Below, one piece after another: positions 8,842 through 53,556 of a stretch of 64,000 nucleotides of DNA. Under the pieces are notes generated by a model. The model searched no databases and was not told where the DNA came from. It saw only the letters and a program-made list of their open reading frames with translations. Source of the DNA: Saccharothrix sp. NRRL B-16314 (GTDB lineage Bacteria > Actinomycetota > Actinomycetes > Mycobacteriales > Pseudonocardiaceae); contig NZ_JNXC01000036.1 in the NCBI RefSeq assembly GCF_000716595.1, positions 7,585 through 71,584 on the forward strand, in the 5' to 3' direction. The translations under genes and the position numbers were made by a program. The stretch's first letter is position 1. Every line of letters begins with the position of its first letter.

Positions 8842-9672
8842 ATGACCACCAGCGGTCAGAGCCCGACCGACTACCGCACGCGGCTCGCCGAACGGCTCAA
8901 GGAGCTGATGCGGCGCAGCGGCAAGGACCGCGCGGACATCATGCGGACGCTGGGCTGTTCGGTGTCGAAGGTCGGCACGATCCTGCGCGGCGACACCTCG
9001 GTGCCGCCGCTGGAGTTGGCGGCCCTGCTCGACCTCTTCGACGTGCAGGACGAGGAGCGGGCGGACCTCCTGCACCTGGGCGAGGAGGCACGTCGGCGGC
9101 GGCCCAAGACGCCGTGGGGTTCGGCCATCCCCGACCGGCTGCGGAAGTTCTTCAACACCGAGGAGACCGCGCGGCGCATCGAGTTGTACCGGCCGGATCT
9201 GTTGCACGGCTTGGTGCAGACCGAGGCCTATGCACGGGCGGTGATCGAGACGAACTCGGCGCTGCGGCCCGCCGACGTCGAACGCCTGGTGCAGGCGAGG
9301 ATGGCCCGGCAGGCTCGCATCACCGGGCAGAACCCGCCGGACTACACGCTGGTGATCCGGCAGTCGGTGTTGCGGGCTCCGGTCGGGTCGGAGGAAACCA
9401 GGGTCGAGCAGATCGCGCACTTGAGGAAGCTGGCGGAGCTGCCCCACGTCACCATCCGGATCATCCCGGACAGTGTCGGACTGACGAGCGCGCTGTACTT
9501 CCCTTTCATGATCCTCACCCCGCCGGAGGACCGCGCCAAGACCGTGTACGTCGAGACGTTGACCGACGGGCTGCTGGTGGACGAGGAGAGCCGGATCTCC
9601 CACTACGAAGCCGTTTTCCAGGAGCTGTTGGCGGTTTCGAGCACGGATTTGCTTGCTAGCGTTGAGCCATGA
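8842..9672 (+). CDS. XRE-family regulator with DUF5753 domain
   Basis: This 276-residue protein is a helix-turn-helix DNA-binding protein of the family that in Streptomyces pairs with a DUF397 partner (BldB/WhiJ-like logic). The XRE helix-turn-helix lies at about residues 10-65 (DIMRTLGCSVSKVGTILRG). The DUF5753 domain covers roughly residues 95-270 and contains the characteristic IELYRPDLLHGLVQTEAYA and IRIIPDSVG segments. The ATG at 8842 has a GAGGAG ribosome site five bases upstream. Its TGA overlaps the ATG of the DUF397 gene (ATGA), so the two are translationally coupled. Confidence 0.92.
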   Translation: MTTSGQSPTDYRTRLAERLKELMRRSGKDRADIMRTLGCSVSKVGTILRGDTSVPPLELAALLDLFDVQDEERADLLHLGEEARRRRPKTPWGSAIPDRLRKFFNTEETARRIELYRPDLLHGLVQTEAYARAVIETNSALRPADVERLVQARMARQARITGQNPPDYTLVIRQSVLRAPVGSEETRVEQIAHLRKLAELPHVTIRIIPDSVGLTSALYFPFMILTPPEDRAKTVYVETLTDGLLVDEESRISHYEAVFQELLAVSSTDLLASVEP

Positions 9673-9845
9673 CCTGGAGGAAGAGCAGCTACAGCGGGAA
9701 CAGTGGTGGTGATTGTGTCGAGTTGCGGGCGGGATTGGGCGCCGTGCGCGACTCGAAGAACGTCGACGGGCCGGTGCTGGAAGTCAGGCCTGCTGCTCTG
9801 AGGGCGTTCCTGAAGGCTCTGCGGACCAGCTGGCCAGCAGCTTGA
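9669..9845 (+). CDS. DUF397 domain protein
   Basis: This 58-residue protein is encoded by a short gene starting in the ATGA overlap with the preceding DUF5753 regulator gene. It shows the full DUF397 pattern: WRKSSYSGNSGGDCVEL, then VRDSKNVDGPVLEV and the closing helix PAALRAFLKAL. In Streptomyces such proteins act with their XRE partner in developmental or antibiotic regulation; a toxin-antitoxin-like role has also been proposed. The last 62 bases overlap the 3' end of the convergent MmyB-like gene. It is complete despite its small size. Confidence 0.9.
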   Translation: MTWRKSSYSGNSGGDCVELRAGLGAVRDSKNVDGPVLEVRPAALRAFLKALRTSWPAA

Positions 9846-10629
9846 GGCGTTCCTCGGTCGGCGAGCCGACCCGGGCCGTGTACATGGCCAGGACCACGTC
9901 CGGGTCGCCGGTGGGTTGCAGGGTCTCGTAGTCGAGGTCCAGGTCGCCCACCACCTGGTGGTGGATGAGCTTGGTGCCGTGCGTCTTCTCCATCACCCGG
10001 TGCTGCGCCCACAGCTTGCGGAACGTCTCGTCCTTGACCGACAGCTCCCCCACCAGCGCGGCGAGCCTGGCGTCGTCGGGGTAGCGGCCCGCGTCCAGCC
10101 TGAGGAACGCCACCATGTCCTCGGCGACGGTGGGCCAGTCGCGGTAGAAGGTGCGGGCTTCCGGGCGCAGGAACGTGTGCCTGGCGGCGTTGCGGTCCTC
10201 CGGCGCCTGTCCGGTGAAGCCGTAGAGGGCGTCGGCCAGCGGGTTCCACGCGAGGATGTCCGCCCGGCGGCCCATCACGAACGCCGGCACGTCGTCGGCC
10301 ATGGCGAGCAGCCGCCGCAGGCCGGGGCGGACGTGCTGGGGCGCGGGGCGTTTCGACGGGACCGGGCGGACGAGGTTGCGCAGGTGGGCGCGTTCGGTCT
10401 CGTCCAGGCGGAGCACGCGGGCGACGGCGTCCAGGACCGAGTCGGAGATCGCGGGAGCCCGCCCTTGCTCCAGTCGCATGTAGTAGTCCACGCTCACGCC
10501 CGCCAGCATCGCCAGCTCCTCGCGGCGCAGGCCTGGGACGCGGCGGCGGCCACCACCGGGCAGGCCCACGTCGTCCGGGCGCACGCGAGCCCGGCGGCTG
10601 CGGAGGAATTCGCCGACGTCGTGGTTCAC
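9784..10629 (-). CDS. Helix-turn-helix regulator with MmyB-like ligand-binding domain
   Basis: This is a 281-residue regulator. An XRE helix-turn-helix at about residues 12-75 (LRREELAMLAGVSVDYYMRLEQG) is followed by the MmyB-like ligand-binding domain, recognisable from DILAWNPLADALYGF and FLRPEARTFYRDW. Related proteins bind a lipid or fatty-acid-like ligand and usually control a divergently transcribed dehydrogenase/reductase gene, as here with the SDR gene at 10750. I chose the GTG at 10629 because DVGEFLRSRRARVRP is the family's normal N-terminus. The 3' end overlaps the DUF397 gene on the other strand. Confidence 0.9.
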   Translation of the reverse strand: MNHDVGEFLRSRRARVRPDDVGLPGGGRRRVPGLRREELAMLAGVSVDYYMRLEQGRAPAISDSVLDAVARVLRLDETERAHLRNLVRPVPSKRPAPQHVRPGLRRLLAMADDVPAFVMGRRADILAWNPLADALYGFTGQAPEDRNAARHTFLRPEARTFYRDWPTVAEDMVAFLRLDAGRYPDDARLAALVGELSVKDETFRKLWAQHRVMEKTHGTKLIHHQVVGDLDLDYETLQPTGDPDVVLAMYTARVGSPTEERLKLLASWSAEPSGTPSEQQA

Positions 10630-10655
10630 CTGTCCAGTATGGGTGCCTCGGACCG

Positions 10656-10684
10656 CCCTAGCCTGGGTACTGCCAGACCTAGGG
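10656..10684. promoter_or_regulatory. Candidate operator between the MmyB-like regulator and the SDR gene
   Basis: Two nested inverted repeats lie in the divergent intergenic region: outer arms CCCTAG and CTAGGG, and inner arms CTGG and CCAG spaced by six bases. Position and symmetry suit binding by a dimeric regulator. The assignment to the neighbouring regulator is inference. Confidence 0.35.
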
Positions 10685-10749
10685 AACGGCTCTCCACAGG
10701 TGGCGCAGGGCCTCTGGTACCGGCGGCGACCGGCCCCAGTGTTGTTGCC

Positions 10750-11499
10750 ATGACCTACGACCTGAACAACCGCACTGCCGTCGTCACCGGTGCCGCGAGT
10801 GGCATCGGCGCCGAGATCGCGCTCGTCCTCGCCCGGTCCGGGGCGAAGGTCGCGCTGCTGGCCCGCCGCGCGGACCGGCTCACCGAACTGGCCGGGAAGA
10901 TCGCTGCCGAGGGTGGGCAGGCGCTCGCGGTCGCCGCCGACGTGACGGGTGACCTCACCGAGGCCGTGGAGGCGATCCACACCGCTTTCGGGCGGGTCGA
11001 CCTGGTGGTGAACAACGCCGGCGTGATGCTGGCCAACCCGATCACCGAGGGCCGCGACGACGAGTGGCACCGGATGATCGACACCAACGTCAAGGGCCTG
11101 CTCAACGTGACCAGGGCGTTCACCGGAGACCTGGTCGCAGCCGGCGCGGAGGGCACGGCGGACCTGGTGAACATCTCGTCCGTCGGCGCGCACATCACCT
11201 TCCCCAACTACGGCGTCTACACCGCGACGAAGGCCGCCGTCACGCACCTGTCGGCGAACCTGCGCACCGAGTTCGGCCCGCTGGGCGTGCGGGTGACCAA
11301 CGTCGAACCCGGCCTGGTCAACAGCGAGCTGGCCGACCACATGGACAACCCGGAGGTGGACGCGCACCTGGAGGCGTGGCGGGAGCAGGTGCCGCCGCTG
11401 AACCCGGCCGACATCGGCGACGTGGTCGGGTACGCCACCAGCCGACCGAAGCAGGTGAACCTGCGGCAGCTCATCGTGCTGCCGACCGTCCAGGTCTGA
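10750..11499 (+). CDS. Short-chain dehydrogenase/reductase
   Basis: This 249-residue classical SDR is an NAD(P)-dependent oxidoreductase of the cytoplasm. It shows the cofactor motif TGAASGIG at about residues 14-21, NNAG near residue 87, the catalytic Ser in NISSVGA and the YTATK catalytic Tyr-Lys pair near residues 158-162. The C-terminal PxxVNS region (VEPGLVNSELADHM) is intact. The sequence is closest to the clavaldehyde-dehydrogenase-like/YdfG group. It is divergent from the MmyB-like regulator that probably controls it. A strong terminator begins at its stop codon. The substrate is unknown. Confidence 0.9.
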   Translation: MTYDLNNRTAVVTGAASGIGAEIALVLARSGAKVALLARRADRLTELAGKIAAEGGQALAVAADVTGDLTEAVEAIHTAFGRVDLVVNNAGVMLANPITEGRDDEWHRMIDTNVKGLLNVTRAFTGDLVAAGAEGTADLVNISSVGAHITFPNYGVYTATKAAVTHLSANLRTEFGPLGVRVTNVEPGLVNSELADHMDNPEVDAHLEAWREQVPPLNPADIGDVVGYATSRPKQVNLRQLIVLPTVQV

Positions 11500-11560
11500 C
11501 GACTGGACAAGCGCCGCCCATCGACCCCTCCGTCGGGGCCGATGGGCGGTTCCAGTCGTC
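11498..11560. terminator. Strong bidirectional terminator
   Basis: Outer arms GACGACTGGA and TCCAGTCGTC enclose inner arms CCGCCCATCG and CGATGGGCGG, giving a long stem with only small interior bulges. It includes the SDR stop codon and ends 17 bases before the stop of the convergent lipoprotein gene, so it can serve both. Confidence 0.8.
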
Positions 11561-11577
11561 GCCCGGCGTCCGCGCCA

Positions 11578-12405
11578 TCACTCTTCGTGCCACACGACGT
11601 CCCTGATGATCATCCGCCCCAGGTTGGGGTCCGCGTAGCACTCGACGGTTCCACCGGCGAGCCTCGGTTCCGCGATGGGCCGCTCGGAGAACTTGGCCTT
11701 CGCGCTGTCGCCCGGCTGAAGCTCGGCCATGGCCTTGCCGTCCATGCCGCCCACGATGACGCCGTCGGCATCCCGCACCACCGCTGTCGCTTTCGGCTTC
11801 AGCGGGACGTCGTAGGTGTTGGTCACCTCGACCGTGACCGACTCGGCCCTGCTGTTCCGCTCGCCGGCGACCGGGTCACCCGTCTTCAACTCGGTGTAGG
11901 AGCCAGGCGGCTTCCGGTACCGCTTGCCATCCGGGGTGTCCAGCGCCTGGATCATGGTGATCTTGACGTTCATGCCGGCGATGGCCGGGCGGTCGCCACC
12001 GGGGGCCGGGCCGGCGAACAGGTCGGTGCGTCCGGCGCCCATCTGCCGACCGGGCAGCACGACGCTGAACTCGCTGCCTCCGGTTTTCAGGTCCGGGATG
12101 GGGTCGCCCGCCGCGTCGGTGAACTCCACCTTGACCCGGACGGTGAGGGCCACCTCGTCGGTGACGTTCTCGATGACGTACCCGTAGCTCACGTAGTCGC
12201 TCTCGACACCGGGCTTGACGAGGCGGTAGGTGAGGAAGCCCTGGTCCACGACCTTGATCACCTCATCGGCGCTGGTGATCGCCTTCGGCTTGCCGGCGTC
12301 GCCTGTGCCGCCCCCGGCTGACGACCCACCCCCGTCACCGCACGCGGTCGTCACGGCCAGTGCGGCGACAGCGACCGCGACGATCTTCCTGGTTCGATGC
12401 CCCAT
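11578..12405 (-). CDS. Secreted lipoprotein of unknown function
   Basis: This is a 275-residue lipoprotein. The signal peptide ends in the lipobox AVTTAC with C22 as the anchor, followed by a Gly/Ser-rich linker. The mature part looks like one or two immunoglobulin-like beta-sandwich domains: YVSYGYVIENVTDEVALTVR and VTVEVTNTYDVPLKPKATAV are the alternating patterns seen in FxLYD-type domains, which bind or display surface ligands. A role at the cell envelope is likely, but no specific function can be assigned. The start is an ATG followed by RTRK, a typical positively charged n-region. Confidence 0.75.
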   Translation of the reverse strand: MGHRTRKIVAVAVAALAVTTACGDGGGSSAGGGTGDAGKPKAITSADEVIKVVDQGFLTYRLVKPGVESDYVSYGYVIENVTDEVALTVRVKVEFTDAAGDPIPDLKTGGSEFSVVLPGRQMGAGRTDLFAGPAPGGDRPAIAGMNVKITMIQALDTPDGKRYRKPPGSYTELKTGDPVAGERNSRAESVTVEVTNTYDVPLKPKATAVVRDADGVIVGGMDGKAMAELQPGDSAKAKFSERPIAEPRLAGGTVECYADPNLGRMIIRDVVWHEE

Positions 12406-12483
12406 GGAGCCGGAACCTATTGCCGATGACGAGGCGAGCGTGTCAGGCGTTCGCTCTACACGCCCCCGTGGACCTGACCACGG

Positions 12484-13299
12484 TCAGTTCGCCTTGCGTT
12501 TGCGGTAGGCGCGCTGTTGGCACCCGCGCGAGCAGTACGCGCGGGGCCTCCCGGACGTCGGTTGCTCGACCGGTTCGCCACACATCCGACAGGTTTCATC
12601 ACGCTTTACATCACGCTCGCGGATGAGTATTTCGATACCGTCGAGCAGCCGGGCCAGGCCGAACTCGAACGGCGACACGGACTGGTCGAAGCCACCGGCC
12701 TCCCACAGCCCGGTCAGCACCGGGTAGCGGTCGAACCGGGCGTAGAGCGTGTCGCGGGCACCCCACCACTCGTCGTCGCTCATGCCGGTGCTCTGCTCCG
12801 CGCGTACCGCCTCGACCAGCGCCAGCGCCTCGGCGTCCACGAACCGGGCGACCAGGCCGACCGCCGCGACCACCTCGGCCGGGGTGAGGCCGGTGTCCAC
12901 GAGGATGCCGAGCGCGTGCTCGTAGTGGGCGAGCGCGTGGGGACCGGGCACGTGCCGACCTCGCACCTCAGCCAGCCACTGATGCCGTTTCCGCTGATCC
13001 AAGGCCTGCCGGGCGAAGTCCGCCAGCCTGGACCGCCAGTCGCCGCCGGACGCCTCGACCGGCTGCCCCAGCACGGCGTCGCGCATGAGGTCCACCAGGT
13101 GCGCGCGGCCCGGCACGTGGCGGTAGAGCGCCATGGAGGTGAAGCCGAGCCGTTCGGCGACCTTGCGCATGGACAGGCCGGCCAACCCCTCGGCGTCGGC
13201 CACCTCGACCGCGGCGGCGACGATCCGGTCCAGGCTCAACGCCGGCCGGTCGTCCCACAGCAGCTCGACCCCGCGGTCGGGATCGTCGGCTTTCCCCAT
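12484..13299 (-). CDS. TetR-family regulator with C-terminal Cys-rich tail
   Basis: This protein of about 271 residues starts after a clear GGAGGT ribosome site; a GTG one codon earlier is also possible. The TetR helix-turn-helix is at about residues 25-70 (GLSMRKVAERLGFTSMALYRHV), and the helical TetR_C ligand domain follows (SDDEWWGARDTLYARF region). Unusually, the last 35 residues form a CxxC-x(n)-CxxxC module (CRMCGEP then YCSRGCQQRAYRKRK) resembling a zinc knuckle or ribbon with a basic end. It is divergent from the beta-helix gene at 13366, and a 17-bp palindrome lies between them. The ligand is unknown. Confidence 0.88.
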   Translation of the reverse strand: MGKADDPDRGVELLWDDRPALSLDRIVAAAVEVADAEGLAGLSMRKVAERLGFTSMALYRHVPGRAHLVDLMRDAVLGQPVEASGGDWRSRLADFARQALDQRKRHQWLAEVRGRHVPGPHALAHYEHALGILVDTGLTPAEVVAAVGLVARFVDAEALALVEAVRAEQSTGMSDDEWWGARDTLYARFDRYPVLTGLWEAGGFDQSVSPFEFGLARLLDGIEILIRERDVKRDETCRMCGEPVEQPTSGRPRAYCSRGCQQRAYRKRKAN

Positions 13300-13333
13300 C
13301 ACGCACCTCCGCGCCCATGGTATACATCAACAC

Positions 13334-13350
13334 TGTTTACGCCATAAACA
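13334..13350. promoter_or_regulatory. Candidate TetR operator
   Basis: TGTTTAcgccaTAAACA is a perfect 6-bp inverted repeat with a 5-base spacer. It lies between the TetR gene and the divergent beta-helix gene, 15 bases before the start of the latter. AT-rich half-sites of this kind are typical for TetR proteins with this C-terminal domain. Confidence 0.6.
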
Positions 13351-13365
13351 AGGGAAGGTGTGCTC

Positions 13366-15061
13366 ATGATCGAGTTCCACGTCTCCCCGACCGGGCACGA
13401 TGCCACGTCGGGCACCGCCGACCGGCCGTTCGCCACCCTGGAACGTGCGCGGCGGGCGGCCCGCGAGGCGACCGGTGATGTGGTCGTGCACCTCAGAACG
13501 GGCACGCACGTGCTCACCGAGCCGTTCGAGCTGACCGAGGACGACTCCGGCGGCGACGGCCACCGGATCGTCTACCAGGCGTTCGGCTACGGCACCGACG
13601 CGCGGGAGGAGGTCGTGATCAGCGGCGGACGGGAGGTCACCGGCCACCGCACGGCGGAAGGGGTGTGGCTGGCCGAGGTCGGCGACCTGGTCACCCGCCA
13701 CCTCGCGGTGAACGGCCGGCGGGCCGAGCGCGCCGGTGTCGACGGGCTGCCCGGCGACGTGCGCCGGACGCCGACCGGTTACGTCACGGACCACCCGTTG
13801 GACTGGCGGAACGCGGCGGGCGTCGAGTTCGTGCACCGGGGCGTCTACCCGTGGACGGAGGCACGCCTGGCCGTCGCCGAGGTCACCCGCGAGGGCGACG
13901 AGACCGTGATCACCATGGCGCGGCCCGCGTTCGACCGGGCCCTGGACCTGTACAACGCCGAGTGGTACGGCCAGGTGACCGCCGGTCCACCGGCGCCGAC
14001 CCGCGTCGAGAACGACCCGGCGCTCCTCACCGAGCCCGGCACGTTCGCCCTGGACCGGTCGCGGCCGGGCGGGCACGTCCTGCACTACCTCCCGCGCCAG
14101 GACGAGGACCCGCACGTGGTCGTGCCCGCGCTGGAAGTGCTGGTGCACGCCACCGGCACGCGGAACGTGACGTTCCGGGGCCTGACGTTCGCCGACACGA
14201 CGTGGCTGCGGCCGGGCAGCGACGACGGCTTCCCGCACTACCACGGCAACGGCTACTACGACGGCGGCCCGATCGAGAAGATCGAGATGGGCGAGGGCGC
14301 GTGGCTGACCGCGCCGAGCGGGCAGGAGCAGGTCCCGGCCTGCGTGCGGCTCGACGGCACCACCGGGATGAGGTTCGAGGGCTGCCGCTTCACCCGCCTG
14401 GGCGCCACCGGCCTCGGCGCGACCGGCGGCGCGGACCTCGTGGTGCGCGGTTGCGACTTCGACACGCTGGCCGCCTCCGCCGTCGCGGTCACCGGCAGCC
14501 GGGCCGTGCTGATCGAGGACAACCTCATCGCGCACGTCGGCCTCGACCACTCCGGCTCACCCGGCGTCACCGTCCTGGGCACCGAGGACTGCACGATCAC
14601 GCACAACCACGTCCACGACGTGCCGCACAACGGCATCGTCGCCGGTCCGGGCCGGAGCACCCGGATCACGCACAACCTGGTGATCGGCGCCATGGGCGTG
14701 CTGGCCGACGGCGGCGGGATCTACCTGTCCGGCCCGCAGGGCGACGCCGACAACCGCTCGGTGATCAGCGGGAACGTCATCGAGGACGTCCGCACGCCGT
14801 ACAACTTCGGCCTCTACACCGATTACGGGGCGAGCTGGGTCACGGTCGAGGAGAACGTGGTCGCCCGCGCGGACAACACGTCCGTCCTGCACGTCAGCCC
14901 GCCGTTGGAGCACGTCGTCTACCGGGGCAACTTCTGGGACGCCGACCCGGTCGGCGGCGACGCCGTGCCGGCGGGCGTCACGTACGAGGGGAACACCACG
15001 ATCGTCGACGCCGCCGCGCTCGACGCCGCCACGGCGGACATCCGGGCCCGCGCCGGCCTCC

Positions 15062-15078
<17 letters not shown>
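13366..15078 (+). CDS. Right-handed parallel beta-helix protein, probable polysaccharide-active enzyme
   Basis: This 570-residue protein opens with FHVSPTGHDATSGTADRPFATLERARRA in pieces that match glycoside hydrolase or lyase beta-helix proteins (GH120/GH141-like). The region ISGGREVTG follows, and repeated NNV/DNL/HNHVHDV-type turns from about residue 340 are pectate-lyase-like coils. There is no signal peptide, so the protein is predicted cytoplasmic, acting on imported oligosaccharides. I chose the ATG at 13366 since AGGGAAGG lies eight bases upstream; a GTG at 13360 is too close to that site. It is probably repressed by the divergent TetR. Its last 17 bases overlap the convergent lysX gene. 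The exact substrate is unknown. Confidence 0.75.
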
Positions 15079-18325
<3,247 letters not shown>

Positions 18326-43558: not shown

Positions 43559-44468
43559 CCGCGGTCACGGCCGCCGCCGAGGCGCCGACGACCCGGGACA
43601 GCTCCACCGCCCGCGTCACGTGGCCCGCGTCGGGGTTGCGGCCGTGGCCGAGCACCGGCCGGTCCTCCGCGCCGTGCGCGTACACGGTCCGCCCACCCAG
43701 CCGGACCTCCAACGCCCCCGCGAACGCCGCCTCCACCTGACCCGCGTTGGGGCTGGGGTGCGCCGCCGCGTCGCGTCGCCACGTCCGCCAAGCCTCACCC
43801 GCGGACCCGCCGACGACCGGCGCGCCCGCCGTCGTGAGCAGTGCCGCCAGCCGTGACGGCACGAGGTTCGCCACGTCGTCCAACCGGGCCGCCGACCAGC
43901 CGAACCGCAGGTAGCGCTCGTTGCGGTGGCCGACCATGGCGTCCAGGGTGTTCGCCGCGCGGTAGCCGAGCAGACCGGGCACGCCCGCGACCGCTCCCCA
44001 GAAGAGCGGGGCCACCACCGCGTCGGACGTGTTCTCCGCCACGGACTCGACGGTCGCCTTCGCCAGGCCCAGCGTGTCCAGCTTGCGCGGCTCACGCCCG
44101 CACAGGTTGGGCAAACGATTGCGCGCCGCTTCGAGGTCGCCGCCGTCCAGCTCGCGGCCCATCGCGGTGCCCTCGTCGGCCAACGACGACCCGCCGAGCA
44201 CGATCCACGTCGCCGCGGCCGTGGTCAGGGCCTGCGCCACCTGGCTGCGCCGGCCCAGCCGTTCCACCGCGACACCGGCCAGCACGGTGCCGCCGACCAG
44301 CGCCACCGTGTGCGCGACCCCCGCCGCCTTGTGGTCGCGGTGCAGCTTGCGCTCCAGCGCCGCCGCAGCCCGCCCGAATCCCGCTACCGGGTGATACTTC
44401 CGGGGGTCGCCGAACACCGCGTCGGCGGCCACGCCCAGCACCAACCCCACCGCCCGCCCCAGACTCAC
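43500..44468 (-). CDS. cobD: Cobalamin biosynthesis protein CobD/CbiB
   Basis: This 322-residue integral membrane protein attaches aminopropanol (or its phosphate) to adenosylcobyric acid, making adenosylcobinamide. It shows DAVFGDPRKYHPVAGFGRA at the N-terminus, NRLPNLCGREPRKLDTLGL, and the diagnostic ATVESVAENTSDAVVAPLFW followed by GYRAANTLDAMVGH. Five or so hydrophobic segments are present. It starts at a GTG. It corresponds to Rv2236c and ends the block syntenic with M. tuberculosis. Confidence 0.93.
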   Translation of the reverse strand: MSLGRAVGLVLGVAADAVFGDPRKYHPVAGFGRAAAALERKLHRDHKAAGVAHTVALVGGTVLAGVAVERLGRRSQVAQALTTAAATWIVLGGSSLADEGTAMGRELDGGDLEAARNRLPNLCGREPRKLDTLGLAKATVESVAENTSDAVVAPLFWGAVAGVPGLLGYRAANTLDAMVGHRNERYLRFGWSAARLDDVANLVPSRLAALLTTAGAPVVGGSAGEAWRTWRRDAAAHPSPNAGQVEAAFAGALEVRLGGRTVYAHGAEDRPVLGHGRNPDAGHVTRAVELSRVVGASAAAVTAVIALVRPRLRRAARRRTSA

Positions 44469-44505: not shown

Positions 44506-44511
44506 TAGGGT
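44506..44511 (+). promoter_or_regulatory. Candidate leaderless -10 box for the jet operon
   Basis: TAGGGT fits TANNNT and lies eight bases before the GTG of jetA. There are only 50 bases between cobD and jetA, so the operon promoter must lie here. Confidence 0.4.
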
Positions 44512-44519
44512 GGCCCACC

Positions 44520-46001
44520 GTGGAACCAGCCGGCCGCCTCAAGCTCTACGCCTACCTGGACGCGCGCGACCACCAGCGCACGTACCTGGCGATCATGCGG
44601 CTGTTCACCTCGACACTGCTGGCCGACCTGTCCGCGGGCGAGGTCGCGGGCGCCCTGGCCGGCGCCGAGCGCGAGGGCCGGGTCGAGCCGGGCGAGTCGC
44701 GCATCGAGAACGTGATCAACCGGCTCCGGCAGCTGGTCGAGTGGGGCAACCTGGTGCAGGGCCGGCGCGAGGTGGTGGCGTCGAGCATCGCCGAGTTCCA
44801 GCACGGCAGCGTGCGCTACCAGGTCAGCAAGCTCGCGGTCCGGGTGCAGCGCGACGTGGACGAACTGCTGCGCGTGCCCGAGGGCGCGCGGGAGGTGTCC
44901 CGGGAGCTGCTGCCCGCCGTGGAACGCGGTCTGGGCGGGCTGGGGCAGTCGCTGTCGGAGGCGTTGATCAGCGGCGGTCGCCGGCCGCGCGAGGTGCTGG
45001 CCGAGCAGGTCACCACGCTGTTCCTGCAGCACGCCGAGCTGGCCGCGACCGTGCGCGACTTCTACGCGTACCTGGGTCAGGTCGTGACGCGGCACCACCT
45101 GGCGCCGGAGGAGATCTCGGGGTTCCGGAACCTGCTGGTCGAGTACATCCAGATGGTCGTGGAGGACGTGCTGCGGCACACCCCGGCCATCGCGGACGCC
45201 CTGGCGCGGGTGAACTCGGCGCGGTCCGAGCTGCTGCGGCTCCTGGGCCGCGCCGACCTCGGCGAGCAGGTCGAACGAGCGCGCGGGCGGTCCGCCGAGG
45301 ACTGGCAGGAGCTGACGGACTGGTTCGTGGACCGGCCCGGCCGGCCGAGCCAGGTGACGGCGTTGCGCGAGGCCACCGCGCGGGCGATCGGGTCGCTGCT
45401 GGCCAGCGTGAAGCGGGCCACGTCCGGCGGCGGGCTGCTGCCGAGCCGCCGGGCCGAGCTGCTGAAGCTGGCGTCGTGGTTCGACTCCGGGTCCCGGGCG
45501 CAGGCCAACGAGCTGTACGCGGCGGCGTTCGGGCTCTACTCCGCGCGGCACGTCTCGCCGGCGCCCGAGCACGACAGCGACAACGAGCGCACGCCGTGGC
45601 GGGACGGTCCGGTGGTCGACGTCACCGTGAGCGTGCGCAGCCGCAGTGATCGCGGCGCGCGGGGGCGGGCGTCGCGGATCCTGGACGACCCGATGACCGA
45701 GCAGTCGTTGCTGGCCGAGGCGCGGGAGGCGGACGAACGGCGGGCCGCGTCGGTGGCGGAGCTGGCCGCGGCGGCGCCCCGGTTGGCCGAGACGACGTTG
45801 TCCGGTGAGGCCCTGGGCGTGTTGTGCGAGCTGCTGACGCTGGCCATGGCGCAGCGGGACACGGCGTTCGACCCGGGTTCGGCCACCGACCCGGTGCGCG
45901 GCCTGCGGGTCACCGTCGCGCACGCCCGAGGCCGGGAGACCCGCATCCGGTCGGCCGCGGGCACCCTGACCCTGCACGACTCGACGTTGGTGCTCGACTG
46001 A
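44520..46001 (+). CDS. jetA: JetA-like Wadjet subunit, DUF2397 (TIGR02677)
   Basis: This 493-residue protein of the DUF2397 family is the kleisin/MukF-like component of Wadjet systems. It opens with LKLYAYLDARDHQRTYLAIMRLF and contains the winged-helix-like VINRLRQLVEWGNLVQGRR and the helical region with SGFRNLLVEYIQMVVEDV. The final third is Arg/Ala-rich. Length and order (DUF2397, DUF2398, SMC-like, fourth gene) match the four-gene TIGR02677/02678/02680/02679 cassette, which I recall as Wadjet type III. The start is a GTG with a possible leaderless promoter. Its TGA overlaps the ATG of jetB by one base. Confidence 0.9.
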   Translation: MEPAGRLKLYAYLDARDHQRTYLAIMRLFTSTLLADLSAGEVAGALAGAEREGRVEPGESRIENVINRLRQLVEWGNLVQGRREVVASSIAEFQHGSVRYQVSKLAVRVQRDVDELLRVPEGAREVSRELLPAVERGLGGLGQSLSEALISGGRRPREVLAEQVTTLFLQHAELAATVRDFYAYLGQVVTRHHLAPEEISGFRNLLVEYIQMVVEDVLRHTPAIADALARVNSARSELLRLLGRADLGEQVERARGRSAEDWQELTDWFVDRPGRPSQVTALREATARAIGSLLASVKRATSGGGLLPSRRAELLKLASWFDSGSRAQANELYAAAFGLYSARHVSPAPEHDSDNERTPWRDGPVVDVTVSVRSRSDRGARGRASRILDDPMTEQSLLAEAREADERRAASVAELAAAAPRLAETTLSGEALGVLCELLTLAMAQRDTAFDPGSATDPVRGLRVTVAHARGRETRIRSAAGTLTLHDSTLVLD

Positions 46002-47167
46002 TGTTCGACGACCTCTCCGAGATCGACGCGGCGAACGCGGTGCGGTGCGCCCGCACCCTGCTGCGCCGGCCGTTGCTGCGCGCGGACGGCCCGGACGGCG
46101 AGCTGCTGTCGCTGGTCTACCGGCACCGGGCCGCGTTGCAGGACCTGTTCGCCCGGACGCTCGGGTACCGGCTGGCGGTGGAGCGGCGGTTCGCCCGGCT
46201 CTACAAGTCCGGGCCGGGCGCCGACGACTCCCGCGGCGTGCTCGGCATGTCACCGCGCGGGTACGCGTACGTGGCGTTGACGATGGCGGTGCTGACCGGG
46301 GTCGGCCGGCAGACGCTGCTGTCGCGGCTGGTGGCGGACATCCGCGCGGCGGCGGCGGAGGCCGGGATCACCGTCGTGGACGACGTGGCGGACCGGCGCG
46401 CGTTGACGGCGGCGTTGCGGCACCTGGTGTCGCTGGGCGTGCTGCACGAGACCGAGGGCACGGTGGACGCGCAGGCCGAGGCGTTGATCACCATCGACAC
46501 GGACCTGCTCGGGCAGCTGCTCACCGGTCCGGTGGCCGAGGCGACGTCGCCCGATCAGCTGGTGGCGCTGGCCGCCCGGCCGGGTCCGCGCGGTGTCGAG
46601 CACGCGGTGCGGCGCAAGCTGGTGGAGAACCCGGTGGTGCTGTACGCGGACCTGCCGGCCGAGCAGGCGGACTGGCTGCGGCGCAACCAGCGCAAGGAGT
46701 CCGCGCTGCTGGAGACGTGCTTCGGGCTCCACACCGAGTGCCGGGTGGAAGGCGTGCTGGCCGCCGACCCGGAGGACTACCTGACGGACCTGTACTTCCC
46801 CGGCACGTCCACGGTCGCGCGGATCGCGTTGCTGGCGCTGCCCGAGCTGCTGTCCGCGGACCCGCGCCCCGACGGCCGGCACGCGGTCGAGCGCGCGGAG
46901 TTGCGGTCGGTGTGCGAGCAGTTGGTGGAGGACTACCCTGCCGCGTGGTCGAAGCAGTTCACCGAGGACCTGGACCGGCTGACCGACGAGGTGCTGGAAC
47001 TGCTGCGCCGCATGGGGTTGGCGGTGCCAGGGGATGACGGGTGGCTGCTCAACGCCGCCGCGCACCGCTGGATACCGCAGCCCGACGGCGATCCGGAACG
47101 GGAAGCGGAGCCCGTCGTCGTCCCCGAAGTGCCGAGCTGGTCGTTGTTCGATGAGGAGACCGCGTGA
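46001..47167 (+). CDS. jetB: JetB-like Wadjet subunit, DUF2398 (TIGR02678)
   Basis: This 388-residue protein of the DUF2398 family is the KITE/MukE-like component that bridges JetA and the SMC ATPase. It contains FARTLGYRLAVERRFARLYK and the diagnostic GMSPRGYAYVALTMAVL, then winged-helix segments (ALRHLVSLGVLHETEG) and a C-terminal WLLNAAAHRWIPQ. Its start overlaps jetA by one base and its end overlaps jetC by four bases (GTGA), so the three are made in fixed ratio. It contains no catalytic residues, as expected. Confidence 0.9.
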   Translation: MFDDLSEIDAANAVRCARTLLRRPLLRADGPDGELLSLVYRHRAALQDLFARTLGYRLAVERRFARLYKSGPGADDSRGVLGMSPRGYAYVALTMAVLTGVGRQTLLSRLVADIRAAAAEAGITVVDDVADRRALTAALRHLVSLGVLHETEGTVDAQAEALITIDTDLLGQLLTGPVAEATSPDQLVALAARPGPRGVEHAVRRKLVENPVVLYADLPAEQADWLRRNQRKESALLETCFGLHTECRVEGVLAADPEDYLTDLYFPGTSTVARIALLALPELLSADPRPDGRHAVERAELRSVCEQLVEDYPAAWSKQFTEDLDRLTDEVLELLRRMGLAVPGDDGWLLNAAAHRWIPQPDGDPEREAEPVVVPEVPSWSLFDEETA

Positions 47168-50100
47168 ACAGGTGGCGGCTGCACAGGGGCGGCATCGTCA
47201 ACATCTGGCAGTACACCGAGCAGTCGTTCGACTTCTCCGGTGGGCGCGCGATCTTCCAGGGCACCAACGGGTCCGGCAAGTCGCGCACGCTGGAGCTGCT
47301 GCTGCCGCTGTGCCTGGACGGCGACCTGCGGCAGGTCGGCTCCAAGGGCTTCGACACGGTGTCGCTGCGGCGGCTCATGCTGGACGACTACGACGGCGGG
47401 CCGAACCGCATCGGGTACGCGTGGGTCGAGCTGGAACGCGAGGGCGAGTTCCTGACGTGCGGGTTGGGCGTGAAGGCGTCCAAGACGTCGCAGGCGATCA
47501 CCGACTCGTGGCGGTTCATCACGCCCCTGCGAGTGGGGCACGACCTGGCGCTGGTGGGCGCGGAGCGGACGCCGCTGGGCCCGGTGCAGCTGCGCGACCT
47601 GGTCGGCGCGGACTGCGTGCTGGAGGAGGCCGCGTTCCGGGCTCGCGTGGCGGAGACCGTGTACGGCGTGCCCGCGGCCCGGTACGGCGACCTCCTGCAC
47701 CTCCAGCGGACGCTGCGCAACCCGGACGTCGGGCTGAAGGTGCTGGAAGGGCAGCTGGAGCAGATCCTGTCCGACGCGCTGCCGCCGTTGGACCAGGTGA
47801 TGGTGGAGCAGCTGGCGACGTCGTTCGACGACCTGGAGTCGATCCGGGAGAACATCACCCGGCTGTCGTCGGCGGACGCGGCGCTGGGGACGTTCCTCAA
47901 GACGTACTCCGACTACGCGTTCGGCGGTTTGCGCACGGCGGCCGAGCGGTTGGGCTCGGCCGAGGACGGGGTGCGGAAGCTGGAACGGGCGTCGGCTCGG
48001 CTGTCGGCGTCCTTGACCGGGTCGCTGGCGGCCCGTGCGGCGGCGGAGCAGTCGCTGTCGGAGCTGGAAGCCGGTGAGCAGCGGGCCGAGGAGACCATCG
48101 GCGCGCTGAAGGAGCTGCCCGCGTTCCGGGATCTCCAGGACTTGCAGACGCGCGAGAAGCTGGTGGCGGAGAAGCGTTCGTCGGCCGTGGCGGCGTTGGA
48201 CATGGCGAACAAGCAGCGGTTGCAGGAGGACGGCGCGGTCGACGGCGTGCTGCGGCTGTTGCGGCGGCTGGCCGAGGACCTGGGCTCGGCGGAGGAGCTG
48301 GTGGAGCCGCTGCGCCACCACCTGCGCGCGGCCGGCCTCTCCCCCGCGGCGGTGCCGGACGTCCCCCGGGTGTCCACTTTGGACGCCATGGTGCGGACGG
48401 AGTCGGTGCGGGCCAAGCCTGATCCGGAAGCCGAGCCGCTGCCGATCGAACGCCGCGTGCCGCCGGCGTTGGACGAGCAGGGGTTGGACGAGCCGGCGTT
48501 GGACGACCTCGTGTCGCGCACGTCGTCGATCGCGTCTTCGGCACGGCAGCGGGGTGCCCTGGCGCTCGCGCTGGCCGCGCAGGCGGCTGAGCTGGACACC
48601 GCGCAACGCCAGGTGGACGCCCTCCAGCTGACCGCGCGGGACGCGCAGCGCGCGGCCACGGAGGCGGCGGCGTTGCGCAACCAGGAGGCGCAGGAGCTGG
48701 CCGAGGTCGCGCAGGCGTGGCTGGCGGACGTGGAGGCCTGGCAGGACGCCGGGCCGACCCGGCCGGAAGGCGGGCTGGCGCTGCCCGCGTCGGTGGACCC
48801 GTCCACGGCGCGGGCGTTGGCCGGTGCGGCTCGTGAGTGGGTCGGGCCCCTGGTGACGGCGGCGCGGGAGCGCGCGCACGCGATCGGGCAGCGGAACGCC
48901 GAGCTGAGCCGGACCATCGACGCGCGGGACGCCGAGTTGACCGGCCTCCGGTCGGGCACGGCGCAGGCGCCCGCGCGGGGGCGTTTCGTGGCGGCCGACC
49001 GTGATCCGTCGACCGGGGCGCCGTTCTACCGGCTGGTGGACTTCCAGGCGGGCGTGGACGTGGAGCAGCGCGCCGGACTGGAGGCGGCCCTCGAAGCGTC
49101 CGGGCTGTTGGACGCGTGGGTCGGGCCGACCGGGGCGGTGGACGGCGATGTCGTCGCCGTCGCGGCCGACCCCGTGGACGGACCGTCGCTGGCGTCGGTC
49201 CTGGTGCCCACGGTCGAGCCCGACTCGCCGGTGTCCCCTTCGGTGGTCGCCGGCCTGCTCGCGTCGGTGTCGCTCGACCGGGGCGCGTTCGCGGTGTCCG
49301 TCGACGGCCGGTGGCAGGCGGGCGTGCTGACGGGCGGCTGGCGCAAGGAGATGGCCGAGTTCATCGGCGCCGGCGCGAGGGAAGCGGCCCGGCAGCGGCG
49401 GATCGGCGAGCTGGAGGACGAGCTGTCGGCGTTGCGGGCCGACCTGGGCGTCGCGGCGGCCGACCTGCTGGCGGCACGCGGTCTGGTCGAGGAGTGGGAG
49501 CAGTACGTCGACCGGTTCCCGTCCGACCGGGACCTGCTCGCGCGGCACGGGCGGCTCCACACGGCGCGGGAGACGGCCGACCGCGCCGCCGCCCACGCGG
49601 AGAAGCTGCGGGCCGAGCTGGAAGCGGCTCAAGCGCGTTACGAGGCGTCACGTGCCGCCGTGGTCCGGCAGGCGGGCGAGGCCGAGCTGCCGGCGGACAC
49701 GGAAGGGCTCCGGAGCGCGCAGGGCGACGCGGCCGAGGCCCAGCGCATCGCGGACCGGCTCGGTGACGTGCTGCGCCGTCAGTGCCAGGCCACCGTGCGG
49801 GACCTGACCGACGCGACGCACCGCTACCACGCGGCCGTGGACGACCGGGTGGCCGCCGAGTCCGAGGCCGAGGCGCGGTGCCGGGACTACGGGACGCAGG
49901 CGTCGACCCTGGCCGAGCTGACCGACGCGATCGGCGGTGAGGCGCGGGAGATCGCCGAGCAGCTGTCCGGTGTGGAGCGTTCACGGGTGCAGATCCGGGC
50001 CGACTTGAAGCGGGTGCGGGAGGACGTCACGTCGGCGCGCGAGGAGGCGGCGAAGCTCAAGGCGCAGATCGAGACGGCGGCGGAGCAGCTGGCGTCGGCG

Positions 50101-51195
50101 CAGGACGTGTCGGCACGCGCGGCGGAGCACTTCAAGGCGGCGCTCGACGCGCCCGGTGTGCTGGCCGCCGCGCTGCCGGACGGGCCGGTGGACGTGCCGG
50201 TGGACGTGCCTTCGGTGCGCGAAGCCCTGGCCGGGAGCGACCGGCGCGGTGCGGGTGAGGCGACGGTGATCGCCAAGTTGCAGGCGTTGCAGACGTCGTT
50301 GGCCGGCAGTCACGACATCACCGCCGACCAGCACGCGGGGCTGCTGACGGTGATGGTCAGCGGTGAGGAAGGCGCCCGGCCGGTCGCGGCGGCGGCGCGG
50401 CAGGTGACGACGAAGCTCGGCGAGCAGCGCGGTCTGCTGGACAGCCAGTACCAGGTGATCTTCGCCGACTACCTGATCCGCGACCTGGCCGAGTGGTTGC
50501 GCGGCCAGATCGCGGTGGCCGAGGACCTGTGCAAGCGGATGAACGGCGTGCTGTCGCGGGCGCGGTCGAGCCAGGGTGTGCACGTCAAGCTGGCGTGGAA
50601 GCACTCGGCAGCGCTGGACGAGGCGACCCGGGACGCGTTGACGCTGGTCCGCTTGCCGTACGCGGAGCGGACGCCGGAGCAGGACGCGACCCTGCGGCGG
50701 GTGTTCACGGAGCGGATCGAGGAGGAGCGGGACCGGCACAGCGGCAACTACGCGGACGTCCTGTCCCGTGCGCTGGACTACCGGACCTGGCACCAGTTCA
50801 CCGTGACCGTCGCCGACACCGCGCCGGACGGCGGTCCCCGTGAACGCCGGCTGCGGCAGCTGTCGTCCGGTGAGACGCGGTTGATCTCGTACGTGACGCT
50901 GTTCGCCGCTGCCGCTTCGTTCTACGACGCGGTGAGCGGCGACTCGTCGCCGTTGCGCCTGGTGCTGCTGGACGAGGCGTTCGAACGGCTGGACGACCCC
51001 ACGATCGCCCGCATGCTGGGTCTCCTGGTCGACCTGGACATGGACTGGGTGATCACCTGGCCGAGCGGCTGGGGCGTCTCCGACAAGATCCCCCGGATGC
51101 ACATCTACGACGTCCTCCGCCCCCGCAACGGCCGCGGCGTCGCCTGCACCCAGACCACCTGGGACGGCGCCGCCCTCGACCGCGTCGATCCCTAG
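47164..51195 (+). CDS. jetC: JetC-like SMC/SbcC ATPase, TIGR02680
   Basis: This 1343-residue SMC-like protein is the motor that extrudes DNA loops in Wadjet complexes. It has Walker A GTNGSGKSRTLELLLPL at residues 33-49, a long coiled coil with an interrupting hinge-like globular part at about 600-740 (FVAADRDPSTGAPFYRLVDF), a second coiled coil, the ABC signature QLSSGETRLISYV near 1233 and Walker B RLVLLDEAFERLDD near 1265. Its length is that of the TIGR02680 family. It starts at a GTG inside the jetB stop. A 37-base gap, unlike the overlaps before, separates it from the TIR gene. Confidence 0.92.
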   Translation: MNRWRLHRGGIVNIWQYTEQSFDFSGGRAIFQGTNGSGKSRTLELLLPLCLDGDLRQVGSKGFDTVSLRRLMLDDYDGGPNRIGYAWVELEREGEFLTCGLGVKASKTSQAITDSWRFITPLRVGHDLALVGAERTPLGPVQLRDLVGADCVLEEAAFRARVAETVYGVPAARYGDLLHLQRTLRNPDVGLKVLEGQLEQILSDALPPLDQVMVEQLATSFDDLESIRENITRLSSADAALGTFLKTYSDYAFGGLRTAAERLGSAEDGVRKLERASARLSASLTGSLAARAAAEQSLSELEAGEQRAEETIGALKELPAFRDLQDLQTREKLVAEKRSSAVAALDMANKQRLQEDGAVDGVLRLLRRLAEDLGSAEELVEPLRHHLRAAGLSPAAVPDVPRVSTLDAMVRTESVRAKPDPEAEPLPIERRVPPALDEQGLDEPALDDLVSRTSSIASSARQRGALALALAAQAAELDTAQRQVDALQLTARDAQRAATEAAALRNQEAQELAEVAQAWLADVEAWQDAGPTRPEGGLALPASVDPSTARALAGAAREWVGPLVTAARERAHAIGQRNAELSRTIDARDAELTGLRSGTAQAPARGRFVAADRDPSTGAPFYRLVDFQAGVDVEQRAGLEAALEASGLLDAWVGPTGAVDGDVVAVAADPVDGPSLASVLVPTVEPDSPVSPSVVAGLLASVSLDRGAFAVSVDGRWQAGVLTGGWRKEMAEFIGAGAREAARQRRIGELEDELSALRADLGVAAADLLAARGLVEEWEQYVDRFPSDRDLLARHGRLHTARETADRAAAHAEKLRAELEAAQARYEASRAAVVRQAGEAELPADTEGLRSAQGDAAEAQRIADRLGDVLRRQCQATVRDLTDATHRYHAAVDDRVAAESEAEARCRDYGTQASTLAELTDAIGGEAREIAEQLSGVERSRVQIRADLKRVREDVTSAREEAAKLKAQIETAAEQLASAQDVSARAAEHFKAALDAPGVLAAALPDGPVDVPVDVPSVREALAGSDRRGAGEATVIAKLQALQTSLAGSHDITADQHAGLLTVMVSGEEGARPVAAAARQVTTKLGEQRGLLDSQYQVIFADYLIRDLAEWLRGQIAVAEDLCKRMNGVLSRARSSQGVHVKLAWKHSAALDEATRDALTLVRLPYAERTPEQDATLRRVFTERIEEERDRHSGNYADVLSRALDYRTWHQFTVTVADTAPDGGPRERRLRQLSSGETRLISYVTLFAAAASFYDAVSGDSSPLRLVLLDEAFERLDDPTIARMLGLLVDLDMDWVITWPSGWGVSDKIPRMHIYDVLRPRNGRGVACTQTTWDGAALDRVDP

Positions 51196-51232: not shown

Positions 51233-52357
51233 GTGACCTTGAGCAAGGCCGATGTCCACCAGTTGTACGGCGGGGAGTCCTATCGGGGGCTCTGGGAGAA
51301 GGCGCTCAACGCGATCGAGTCGGACGATGTGAGCTTCAAGCTGCACACCGGCGATGTGCGCACCGCCAACGACATCAGCGGCCTTCTCGGTGCGTTCGAC
51401 CGGCCCAAACCGGCGCGAAGGGCCGTTCGCCCGGGAACGCGGACGACGGTGACCGTTGCCGAGCTCGACACTCGGCTACGCCGCGGCAAGTTCGGCGGCG
51501 GCCTGCGCGAACTGCTCGAACTGCTCACGGGCAAGCCGGTGCTGACCCGGGCCGAACGCCGGGCGATCTTCGAATCGGAACTGGCCCGGGTCGGCCTGGC
51601 CAGGGATCACTGGGCGGACGCGTGGCTCGATCACTGCCGGAATCCGAAGCGCATGGACGCGACGGAAGTGCGGACGACCGCACGGCAGTGCGCCGCGGTA
51701 CTGGCGGAGTTGGTCCTCGACCCCTCCGCGCGCACCGACGAGCACAAGCCGCTGGAAAGCTTCGCCGAGATCTTCACCGGCAGCGCCAACGGCTTGAGCA
51801 CGCGGGAGCTCGCCGGGCAGCTCGTGCTCAGGGCGCTGGCCCTGGCTCACGGCAGGTCGACTCCGGTGACATCGCACGAACGCTGGCTGCTGTGGTTGAA
51901 ATCCGGGGTGATCATGGACGACAAGTCGACATGGGACGTTTTCATCAGTCACGCCCACGAGGACAAGGACGACTTCGTCCGCCCACTCGCCGCCGAACTG
52001 GACCGCGCCGGACTGCGCGTCTGGTACGACGAGTTCACCATGGTGCCCGGTGACAGCGTTCGGGAGTCGATCGACCGCGGCATCCGGCGGTCCCAGGCCG
52101 GAATCCTGATCATGAGTGCCCACTTCTTCCACAAGTTCTGGACCAAGCAGGAGACGAACGGCCTGTTCAGCATGGCGAGCAGCCACGGCACCAGGTTGAT
52201 CCCGGTCCTCCACGAGCTGGACCCGAAGGAACTCGTGAACCACTCACCGATGTTGGCCGACCTGTACGCGATCCGGTCGGAGGTCGGCATGGAAGCGGTG
52301 GTGGCCGGCGCGCTGCGTGCGGTCGGCAAGCGGGCCGGGGGCTCCCCGACCGGTTAG
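51233..52357 (+). CDS. JetD-like N-terminal arm (DUF3323-like) fused to a TIR domain
   Basis: This 374-residue protein occupies the jetD position. Residues 1-230 follow the pattern I know from DUF3323/TIGR02679 proteins: a start like VHQLYGGESYRGLWEKAL, then TVTVAELDTRLRRGKFGGGL, RAERRAIFESELARV, and TRELAGQLVLRALALAHGR and ERWLLWLKSGVIMDD just before the place where DUF2399 (TOPRIM) normally begins. Instead residues 233-370 are a TIR domain: TWDVFISHAHEDKDDFVRPL, LRVWYDEFTMVPGDSVRESI, and FFHKFWTKQETNGLF with candidate catalytic E307. TIR enzymes of defence systems cleave NAD or make NAD-derived signals. No TOPRIM motif is present. The GTG start may be leaderless; the end overlaps the ROK gene. 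Confidence 0.85.
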   Translation: MTLSKADVHQLYGGESYRGLWEKALNAIESDDVSFKLHTGDVRTANDISGLLGAFDRPKPARRAVRPGTRTTVTVAELDTRLRRGKFGGGLRELLELLTGKPVLTRAERRAIFESELARVGLARDHWADAWLDHCRNPKRMDATEVRTTARQCAAVLAELVLDPSARTDEHKPLESFAEIFTGSANGLSTRELAGQLVLRALALAHGRSTPVTSHERWLLWLKSGVIMDDKSTWDVFISHAHEDKDDFVRPLAAELDRAGLRVWYDEFTMVPGDSVRESIDRGIRRSQAGILIMSAHFFHKFWTKQETNGLFSMASSHGTRLIPVLHELDPKELVNHSPMLADLYAIRSEVGMEAVVAGALRAVGKRAGGSPTG

Positions 52358-53556
52358 ACCACGCGGGTGGGGGTGCGGTGGCGGACGCCGCCCGCGGCGA
52401 GGAACTCGGCCACCGGCAGGGTCGCCGCGCCCAGCGCGACCGACTCGGGGCCCAGTTCGCACAACGTGATGGACGCCTGCTCGAACGGCCGGTGCAGGGC
52501 GTGGCGGGCGGCTTCGGCGCGCACGTCCTCCAGGATCTCCGGCCCGAGGAGCAGCCCCGCCCAGCCGCCCACTATCACCTGCGACGGGTTGAACAGGTTG
52601 ATCAGGTTCGCGATGCCCACCCCGGTGTACCGGGCGGTCTCGGCCAGGACGTGCCGGGCTTCCGGCGAACCGTCGACCACCAGCGCCGCCAACGCCGCCT
52701 CCTGCTCGGCCGGCGCATCGGCCCGCACGGCCCGGTACCGCTCGACCACCGCCGACGCGCCGATGTACGCCTCAAGGCACCCCTGCGCGCCACACCGGCA
52801 CGGACGGCCGTCCAGCGCGATGGTCGTGTGACCCCACTCCCCCGCGCCACCGGACGAACCGCGGTACAGCACGCCGCCCGCGATGACGCTCGCACCGACG
52901 CCCGACCCGATCAACGCCACCACGGCGTCACCCGTGCCGCGGCCCGCGCCGAACCAGACCTCCGCCTGCCCCAACGTGTTCGCGCCGTTGTCCAAGAACA
53001 GCGGCAGCTCGGTCCCGTCCCTGAGCATCCGCTCCAACGCGACCCCGTGCCAGCCGACGGTCTGCGCGTACACCCGGCCCCGCTCGACCTGACCGGGCAC
53101 GCCGATCCCGACGCCGAGCACGTCACCCACCCCGCTGTCCGCGAGGCAGCGGTCGAGCCCGGCCAGCACCCGCCGCGCCACGTCGTCCGCCGAGTGGACG
53201 TCCGGCTCCATCGGGATCGTCGCCTCGGCCAGGCGCTGCAACGTCAGGTCGAACACCTCGACCAGCACGTGCGTCTCGCCGACATCGACACCGACCACCG
53301 CCGCGAAAGCCGGGTTGACCCGCAGCAGGATCCGCGGCCGGCCGCCGTCCGAGTCGACCTGCCCGGCCTCGACCACCACGCCGTCCGAGAGGAGTTCCGC
53401 GACCACCGTGCTGACCGACGCCTGGCTCAGCCCGGTCACGCCCGCGATCTCCTGGCGGCTGCGCGGCTGGTCGAAGTACAGCGCGCGCAGCACCCGCGCC
53501 CGGTTACCGGCACGCAGGTCGCGCACGGTCAGCTTGCGGTGCACGGCGACCCCCAT
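52354..53556 (-). CDS. ROK-family transcriptional regulator
   Basis: This 400-residue protein couples an N-terminal winged helix-turn-helix (about 15-75; PRSRQEIAGVTGLSQASVS) to a ROK sugar-kinase-like domain that senses a sugar or sugar phosphate. It shows VVGVDVGETHVLVEVFD (phosphate-1 loop), GIGVPGQVERGRV, the Asp in FLDNGANTLGQAE, and the zinc signature GHTTIALDGRPCRCGAQGC. It probably represses a carbohydrate uptake or catabolic operon, but none lies beside it; it may be autoregulated. Its stop overlaps that of the TIR gene by four bases. It starts at an ATG. Confidence 0.9.
   Translation of the reverse strand: MGVAVHRKLTVRDLRAGNRARVLRALYFDQPRSRQEIAGVTGLSQASVSTVVAELLSDGVVVEAGQVDSDGGRPRILLRVNPAFAAVVGVDVGETHVLVEVFDLTLQRLAEATIPMEPDVHSADDVARRVLAGLDRCLADSGVGDVLGVGIGVPGQVERGRVYAQTVGWHGVALERMLRDGTELPLFLDNGANTLGQAEVWFGAGRGTGDAVVALIGSGVGASVIAGGVLYRGSSGGAGEWGHTTIALDGRPCRCGAQGCLEAYIGASAVVERYRAVRADAPAEQEAALAALVVDGSPEARHVLAETARYTGVGIANLINLFNPSQVIVGGWAGLLLGPEILEDVRAEAARHALHRPFEQASITLCELGPESVALGAATLPVAEFLAAGGVRHRTPTRVV

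Follow-up and report, generated by a model that had tools for sequence, protein, structure and literature searches.

Wadjet systems are machines that sense the shape of DNA by loop extrusion and then cut it, and the TOPRIM domain is a defining part of their subunit JetD. In type II Wadjet, JetA (DUF2397), JetB (DUF2398) and the SMC protein JetC (TIGR02680) are accompanied by a JetD that joins an arm (DUF3323) to TOPRIM (DUF2399). The passages of PMC10586767 used here describe JetD as touching JetABC at several places, JetABC as giving shape sensing to a nuclease likely kept inactive, Lamassu as employing exchangeable LmuA effectors with TIR among those listed, and MksBEF of P. aeruginosa as an SMC complex that is believed to have once had a JetD and lost it. 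TIR effectors on other sensors are reviewed in PMC10952713, which in the sections consulted lists TOPRIM, not TIR, for Wadjet. Here we analyse a stretch of 64,000 nucleotides of the Saccharothrix sp. NRRL B-16314 genome (contig NZ_JNXC01000036.1, positions 7,585 to 71,584; hereafter the window), in which type II jetABC genes are followed by a gene that carries a JetD arm and, in the place of TOPRIM, a TIR domain.

The fusion gene is a 374-codon frame with a GTG start, and divides as follows.

51233..52357, forward strand: arm-TIR fusion gene (JetD-TIR), 374 aa, by open frame and Pfam matches
51233..51928, forward strand: JetD arm, residues 1-232 (DUF3323 / JetD2 N-terminal part), by Pfam, PADLOC and alignment
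51929..52354, forward strand: TIR domain, residues 233-374, by Pfam, PDB sequence match and fold match
52151..52153, forward strand: codon of Glu307, the predicted TIR catalytic residue, by invariance and alignment with AbTIR

In Pfam, residues 43-230 match DUF3323 (87.3 bits against a cut-off of 26.6, E 1.7e-24) and residues 236-331 match TIR_2 (84.3 bits against a cut-off of 28, E 1.3e-23), with no match to DUF2399, the TOPRIM part, within the 374 residues. PADLOC assigns residues 4-232 to JetD2 (E 7.4e-26). The NCBIfam profile TIGR02679 matches by the N-terminal half alone (residues 63-232, profile positions 26-199 of 382), and its 60.6 bits fall short of the 196 required for the whole protein. 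At the border, ERWLLWLKSGVIMDD of the fusion aligns with ERRALWERCGVTLDA of canonical JetD, and TIR begins right after. The predicted arm structure gave nothing in Foldseek at E <= 0.001; for a canonical type II JetD (genome G152), a sequence comparison with the PDB at E <= 1 likewise gave nothing beyond one match at chance level (0.98). Between the jetC stop and the start of the gene lie 37 bases, and at its other end the gene shares four bases with a convergent ROK-family gene; promoter and terminator scans gave nothing. In three pairs among three carrier genomes, dN/dS is 0.22-0.27 for the arm and 0.10-0.21 for TIR, lower for TIR in every pair. Both halves of the fusion are under purifying selection.

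The closest PDB chains to the TIR part by sequence are PdTIR (4e-34) and the nicotinamide adenine dinucleotide (NAD) hydrolase AbTIR (1.2e-32, 1.8e-32). In a predicted structure (mean pLDDT 89), the TIR fold matches AbTIR 7uxu with E 3.2e-9 and TM 0.80 on target. Trp303 and Glu307, which form a WxxxE motif, are invariant in nine of nine fusions, and in an alignment with AbTIR Glu307 falls on the Glu of its WTNYE, a residue that we take to be the catalytic one of TIR NADases. PADLOC matches the TIR part best to the candidate family PDC-S66 (1.7e-46), for which a literature search found nothing related, and also to ThsB (1e-29). Sequence and modelled fold support a TIR of the NADase kind, with NAD cleavage as the predicted activity. 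An earlier note, made from the letters of the window, had read the gene as a JetD arm with TIR at the point where TOPRIM should begin, and had placed Glu307 in the TIR active site. These matches uphold it on each of those counts, and the arm profile match whose absence would have spoken against it is found with both DUF3323 and JetD2.

The genes upstream, which the same note had called jetABC-like, match type II Wadjet throughout and leave the fusion in the slot of JetD.

44508..46001, forward strand: jetA (DUF2397, kleisin-like), PF09660 E 1.1e-122, PADLOC JetA2 E 6.2e-201; start codon chosen by us, frame opens at 43926
45995..47167, forward strand: jetB (DUF2398, KITE-like), PF09661 E 1.7e-100, PADLOC JetB2 E 1.3e-120; start codon chosen by us, frame opens at 45824
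47164..51195, forward strand: jetC (SMC ATPase, 1343 aa), TIGR02680 688.7 bits (cut-off 462.85), E 1.8e-206, PADLOC JetC2 1219.9 bits
47260..47283, forward strand: JetC Walker A, GTNGSGKS, by motif scan
50860..50874, forward strand: JetC ABC signature, LSSGE, by motif scan
50959..50976, forward strand: JetC Walker B, LVLLDE, by motif scan
52354..53556, reverse strand: ROK-family gene, the convergent flank marker, outside the system, by Pfam and neighbourhood

DUF2397, DUF2398 and a TIGR02680-type SMC thus stand together as in a type II operon. JetA reaches 147 bits on TIGR02677, under the cut-off of 165.85; its Pfam and PADLOC JetA2 matches are strong nonetheless. JetC scores 32.3 bits with LmuB of Lamassu, against 1219.9 with JetC2. 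Of the DUF3323-DUF2399 pair that makes a type II JetD, the arm is present and TOPRIM absent, and because of this absence we treat the system as a variant of Wadjet rather than file it as canonical. JetC varies in length between loci, with 1343 aa in the window, 1385 in L032 (3918-8075) and 1427 in L031 (11145-15428), and the difference lies mostly in a central stretch rich in Pro, Thr and Ala.

We consider it probable, with some reserve, that the arm-TIR protein is an effector that JetABC switches on at foreign DNA, and that NAD is cleaved instead of DNA. The arm would dock on JetABC as JetD does. Recognition of DNA by JetABC would then alter the arm and gather TIR domains, and if the docking of the arm is kept, JetABC would present TIR in the place of TOPRIM. 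TIR NADases work in clusters, and the clustered domains would hydrolyse NAD and leave the cell halted or killed.

Protein database searches recovered eight more full-length arm-TIR fusions with 55-96% identity to the window protein, so that the fusion is no assembly accident. Two of them, P0003 and P0004, are those of genomes G215 and G088, where they lie within the jet locus in the order jetA-jetB-jetC-(MerR, OYE)-arm-TIR-ROK. The recurrence that the earlier note had suggested looking for is therefore found, and the neighbourhood is consistent: the fusion stands between jetC and ROK in all three carrier genomes, a count that covers the host, G215 and G088, with the database fusions P0002 and P0005-P0009 outside it. 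Three of the 25 genomes of the host genus carry it. A profile search of 397 genomes of the order (E <= 1e-35; five candidates scored per genome at first look, G215 outside the draw) found the full fusion in the host genus alone, and among 297 genomes of the family (E <= 1e-20; six candidates scored per genome) only the same three carry it. When the arm by itself was used as query against proteins, in a search which scored just the candidates with most words in common, the same eight fusions and one canonical JetD came back. Carriage on mobile DNA was considered and found no support in searches that did not extend to the phage collection: none of 324 matching plasmid records covers 80% of the fusion, and the viral contigs gave five loci that match TIR only. 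The genome contigs gave three loci, again matching TIR only. The plasmid records hold related TIR domains, and several of the best 15 of the 324 are annotated as DUF1883 proteins.

The JetB tree puts the three carrier genomes in a single subclade of ten rows together with seven non-carriers (support 93, below the mark of 95), a pattern that may reflect loss or transfer. In a tree of arms, those of the TIR fusions make up a single clade (100/99). Together with the jetC-linked and orphan JetD arms of the family they amount to 56 rows, split from four JetDs of second Wadjet systems (99/98, with a caution for long branches), so that the arm is of JetD type II by its DUF3323 match and by its grouping with canonical arms. 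The fork that unites the other arms of the family to the exclusion of the TIR arms is weak (85/89). An exchange of TOPRIM for TIR within the genus's own JetD is not favoured, as the TIR arms are a separate clade and the genus's orphan JetD clusters with JetDs found in the operon in genus g8. By the branching of these sequences, it is more likely that the fusion was acquired ready-made or split early.

The slot behind jetC was followed across the family, where the window JetB matches 88 of 150 genomes at 1e-40 and 81 of 150 at <= 1e-130. Outside the genus, 73 of 74 loci were fetched, one at a contig end being left out, and L218-L220 were added as picked rows, chosen for an arm seen earlier. The resulting 100 rows (the window and 99 loci) comprise 22 TOPRIM proteins with the Glu and both Asp (three of them picked), 14 without the Glu (six of these also DxT or DxS), three arm-TIR fusions, six arm-only genes and 55 loci with no arm gene; two of these 55, L164 and L086, do not reach as far as the slot. 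An intact nuclease is thus missing in 23 of the 45 arm proteins beside jetC, or in 23 of 42 when the picked rows are set aside. Orthologous jetABC of related genera hold a canonical JetD in the same slot. Genes of all kinds in this slot lie mostly directly behind jetC, and 1.2-2.4 kb further on in four g8 rows and G112.

The arm-only genes (L144, L158, L189, L176, L177 and L179; 182-235 aa) end 7-20 residues past the LW..CG/AG that closes the arm, the point at which TIR starts in the fusion. In L144, L158 and L189, Pfam finds DUF3323 above the cut-off and no DUF2399. The three g22 rows have open arm-only frames of 182-184 residues from the chosen starts and are for that reason counted as arm-only, not as decayed; against this label, DUF3323 reaches 18.8 bits in the one tested, below the Pfam cut-off. 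The Glu-less state requires five changes on the JetB tree, at least three of them on starred branches. In the nuclease MksG, according to the part of PMC10123090 consulted, E236A and D279A drastically impaired activity. A 567-aa JetD in L159 (5221-6924, forward strand) has no catalytic Glu, and its arm and TOPRIM are set apart by a long insert of low complexity.

A search across the phylum served as control (396 genomes including the host, E <= 1e-8). It scored seven candidates per genome, at which diverged or arm-only genes may escape, and dealt with the arm proteins without their neighbours. All 26 arms found outside the host genome are followed by TOPRIM; the Glu is kept in 26 of 26, and the Glu with DxD in 24. 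Since all these arms are joined to TOPRIM, the arm is part of JetD, and since the control keeps the nuclease, its loss looks peculiar to this locus family. Set against the 26 Glu-keeping proteins elsewhere, the 23 of 45 without an intact nuclease make the arm look like an adaptor of JetABC that outlasts the nuclease. We give about an even chance to the broader proposal that a type II Wadjet SMC complex has been domesticated here with the JetD arm as its exchangeable adaptor, that the nuclease was repeatedly lost, silenced or severed within this family, and that one lineage fitted the arm with a TIR NADase, turning a shape-sensing loop extruder into a trigger of NAD-depleting abortive immunity without plasmid cutting.

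An intact DUF2399 gene elsewhere in the genome could have served the operon, a finding that the earlier note had named as contrary to its reading; no such gene was found. The host genome has one DUF2399 match at E <= 1, a gene of 334 aa on contig C29 rather than on the window contig. It was rejected as a separate nuclease of the operon, its catalytic Glu being Arg and its second Asp Thr (DxD to DxT). Close copies with the same changes occur in seven more genus genomes (8 of 25 in all), and in G261 and G268 the copy and the core jetB both lie on contig C1, megabases apart. In G215, itself a carrier, no DUF2399 match is seen at E <= 1e-5 and the fusion is the sole arm protein found. The C29 orphan groups in the arm tree with the short in-operon JetD of genus g8, and for this reason looks like the old JetD of the jet locus, moved and predicted to be nuclease-dead. 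Such 334-aa genes with a broken TOPRIM site stand outside the jet locus in L033 (9257-10261, forward strand), L129-L133, L137 and L138. JetD_C (PF09983) has one host match, on contig C19, in a protein that reaches 18.8 bits with DUF2399, below the cut-off; it was likewise rejected, as it belongs to a different operon of five genes with an SMC-like gene of its own. That operon (L253, G000:C19:155500-175400, 9251-16127, reverse strand) encodes the 466-aa JetD_C protein, an SMC-like protein of 1022 aa whose profile matches are weak at best, and three proteins without any match, and by its sequences is a divergent Wadjet-like system. Either the C29 or the C19 protein might still serve the window JetABC in trans.

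The state of the locus in the host genus puts the effector reading in another light. JetB is matched in 25 of 25 genomes, and the core jet locus is available for 24 (the window, L031, L032, L074-L091 and L215-L217; G172 left out). Genes flanking the window's jet operon recur in 22 of 23 fetched loci, the exception being L077 with none of them, which puts 23 of 24 in one syntenic place. In 20 of the 21 non-carrier loci the place behind jetC is visible, and neither tblastn nor a home-made profile finds an arm there; with L086, the remaining one, cut before the slot, no JetD is seen at 21 of 24 loci. In JetD-less genomes, dN/dS of JetC is 0.11-0.26 (four pairs, three covering about half of the protein), and JetC is under purifying selection there. 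A fixed chromosomal genus locus, mostly without JetD, is less plainly a mobile defence module, and in this it resembles MksBEF. The interpretation in the earlier note thus stands in part: the replacement of TOPRIM by TIR, the JetD slot and a TIR of the NADase kind hold, and the fixed locus mostly without JetD was not foreseen. JetABC might accordingly be a resident, chromosome-organising complex, as is assumed of MksBEF after its loss of JetD, and the arm-TIR protein a guard seated on it, set off by interference of phage or plasmid factors with the complex rather than by a small circle. The fixed presence of JetB, its spread over the family, the 53 empty slots seen on contig and the constraint on JetC are all in keeping with this; no sign of a guard mode was seen, relatives hold canonical JetDs in the same slot, and we regard it as unlikely.

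TIR domains of the AbTIR type make isomers of cyclic ADP-ribose, and, with the PADLOC match to ThsB, this would allow the fusion to supply such a messenger to an effector encoded elsewhere, as in Thoeris. A search of the host genome for STALD, the receptor of ThsA type, gave no match at E <= 0.1 and was limited to that receptor family; from a reading of translations, the operon is surrounded by what look like housekeeping genes. As the same reading shows no signalling partner nearby, a direct NADase is favoured, and the messenger appears quite improbable.

The junction between jetC and ROK is variable. In L082 the two frames overlap by four bases with nothing between them; from a reading of translations, an OYE gene occupies it in L079, L085 and L088, with a MerR-like gene too in L079 and L088, L081 has an amidohydrolase-like and a TetR-like gene, and L083 has frames of no assigned identity. 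By the same reading, L077 carries integrase-like and phage-capsid-like frames beside jetC, downstream of it, and the junction behind jetC takes up insertions. An accessory TIR gene might thus have come to lie at this changeable site by chance, functionally unconnected with JetABC, as the third-position G+C of the fusion (0.88, lower than its neighbours, against 0.95 in jetC) and the orphan JetDs with arms outside the locus in 8 of 25 genomes could suggest. This is very unlikely given that all 26 other arms found in the phylum search are joined to TOPRIM and mark the arm as a JetD part, and that all three placed fusions lie between jetC and ROK. A reading of the fusion as a remnant about to be lost, an evolutionary dead end like the arm-only genes and devoid of an enzymatic role, is hardly credible: TOPRIM or its Glu was lost repeatedly in the family and the fusion is missing from most of the genus, but TIR is more constrained than the arm in each pair, and Trp303 and Glu307 are invariant.

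If Wadjet sensing can be wired to TIR, it can be uncoupled from cutting, and signalling from JetABC to JetD could be followed through NAD loss rather than DNA cleavage. Whether the arm has a job of its own also becomes testable, since JetABC retains at its side JetDs that consist of the arm only or lack the Glu. The searched, mostly open-access literature without bioRxiv yielded no account of TIR in a Wadjet system or a JetD, which agrees with the earlier note and is weak evidence of novelty.

Among described systems, type II Wadjet shares with the window its jetABC genes, their order, the slot and the JetD arm, and differs in that the window system has TIR and no TOPRIM nuclease, at a fixed genus locus mostly without JetD. 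Lamassu likewise couples an SMC-type sensor to a changeable effector domain, and its TIR variants give an SMC-type sensor with TIR a precedent; however, it relies on LmuB and LmuC with the effector N-terminal in LmuA, whereas the window has full JetABC and TIR C-terminal to a JetD arm. MksBEF resembles most of the host genus in keeping its complex without JetD, but belongs to another lineage, and a chromosome role of the window JetABC is only putative. AbTIR and PdTIR (PDB 7uwg, 8g83, 3h16) have TIR sequence, fold and WxxxE in common with the fusion; their chains are without a JetD arm, and the match is confined to the TIR part. The ThsB TIR of Thoeris is related to that of the fusion, the ThsA-type STALD receptor being the part with no counterpart found in the host. 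RT-TIR retrons, Thoeris ThsB and DUF1883-TIR proteins carry related TIR domains, but on other partner halves.
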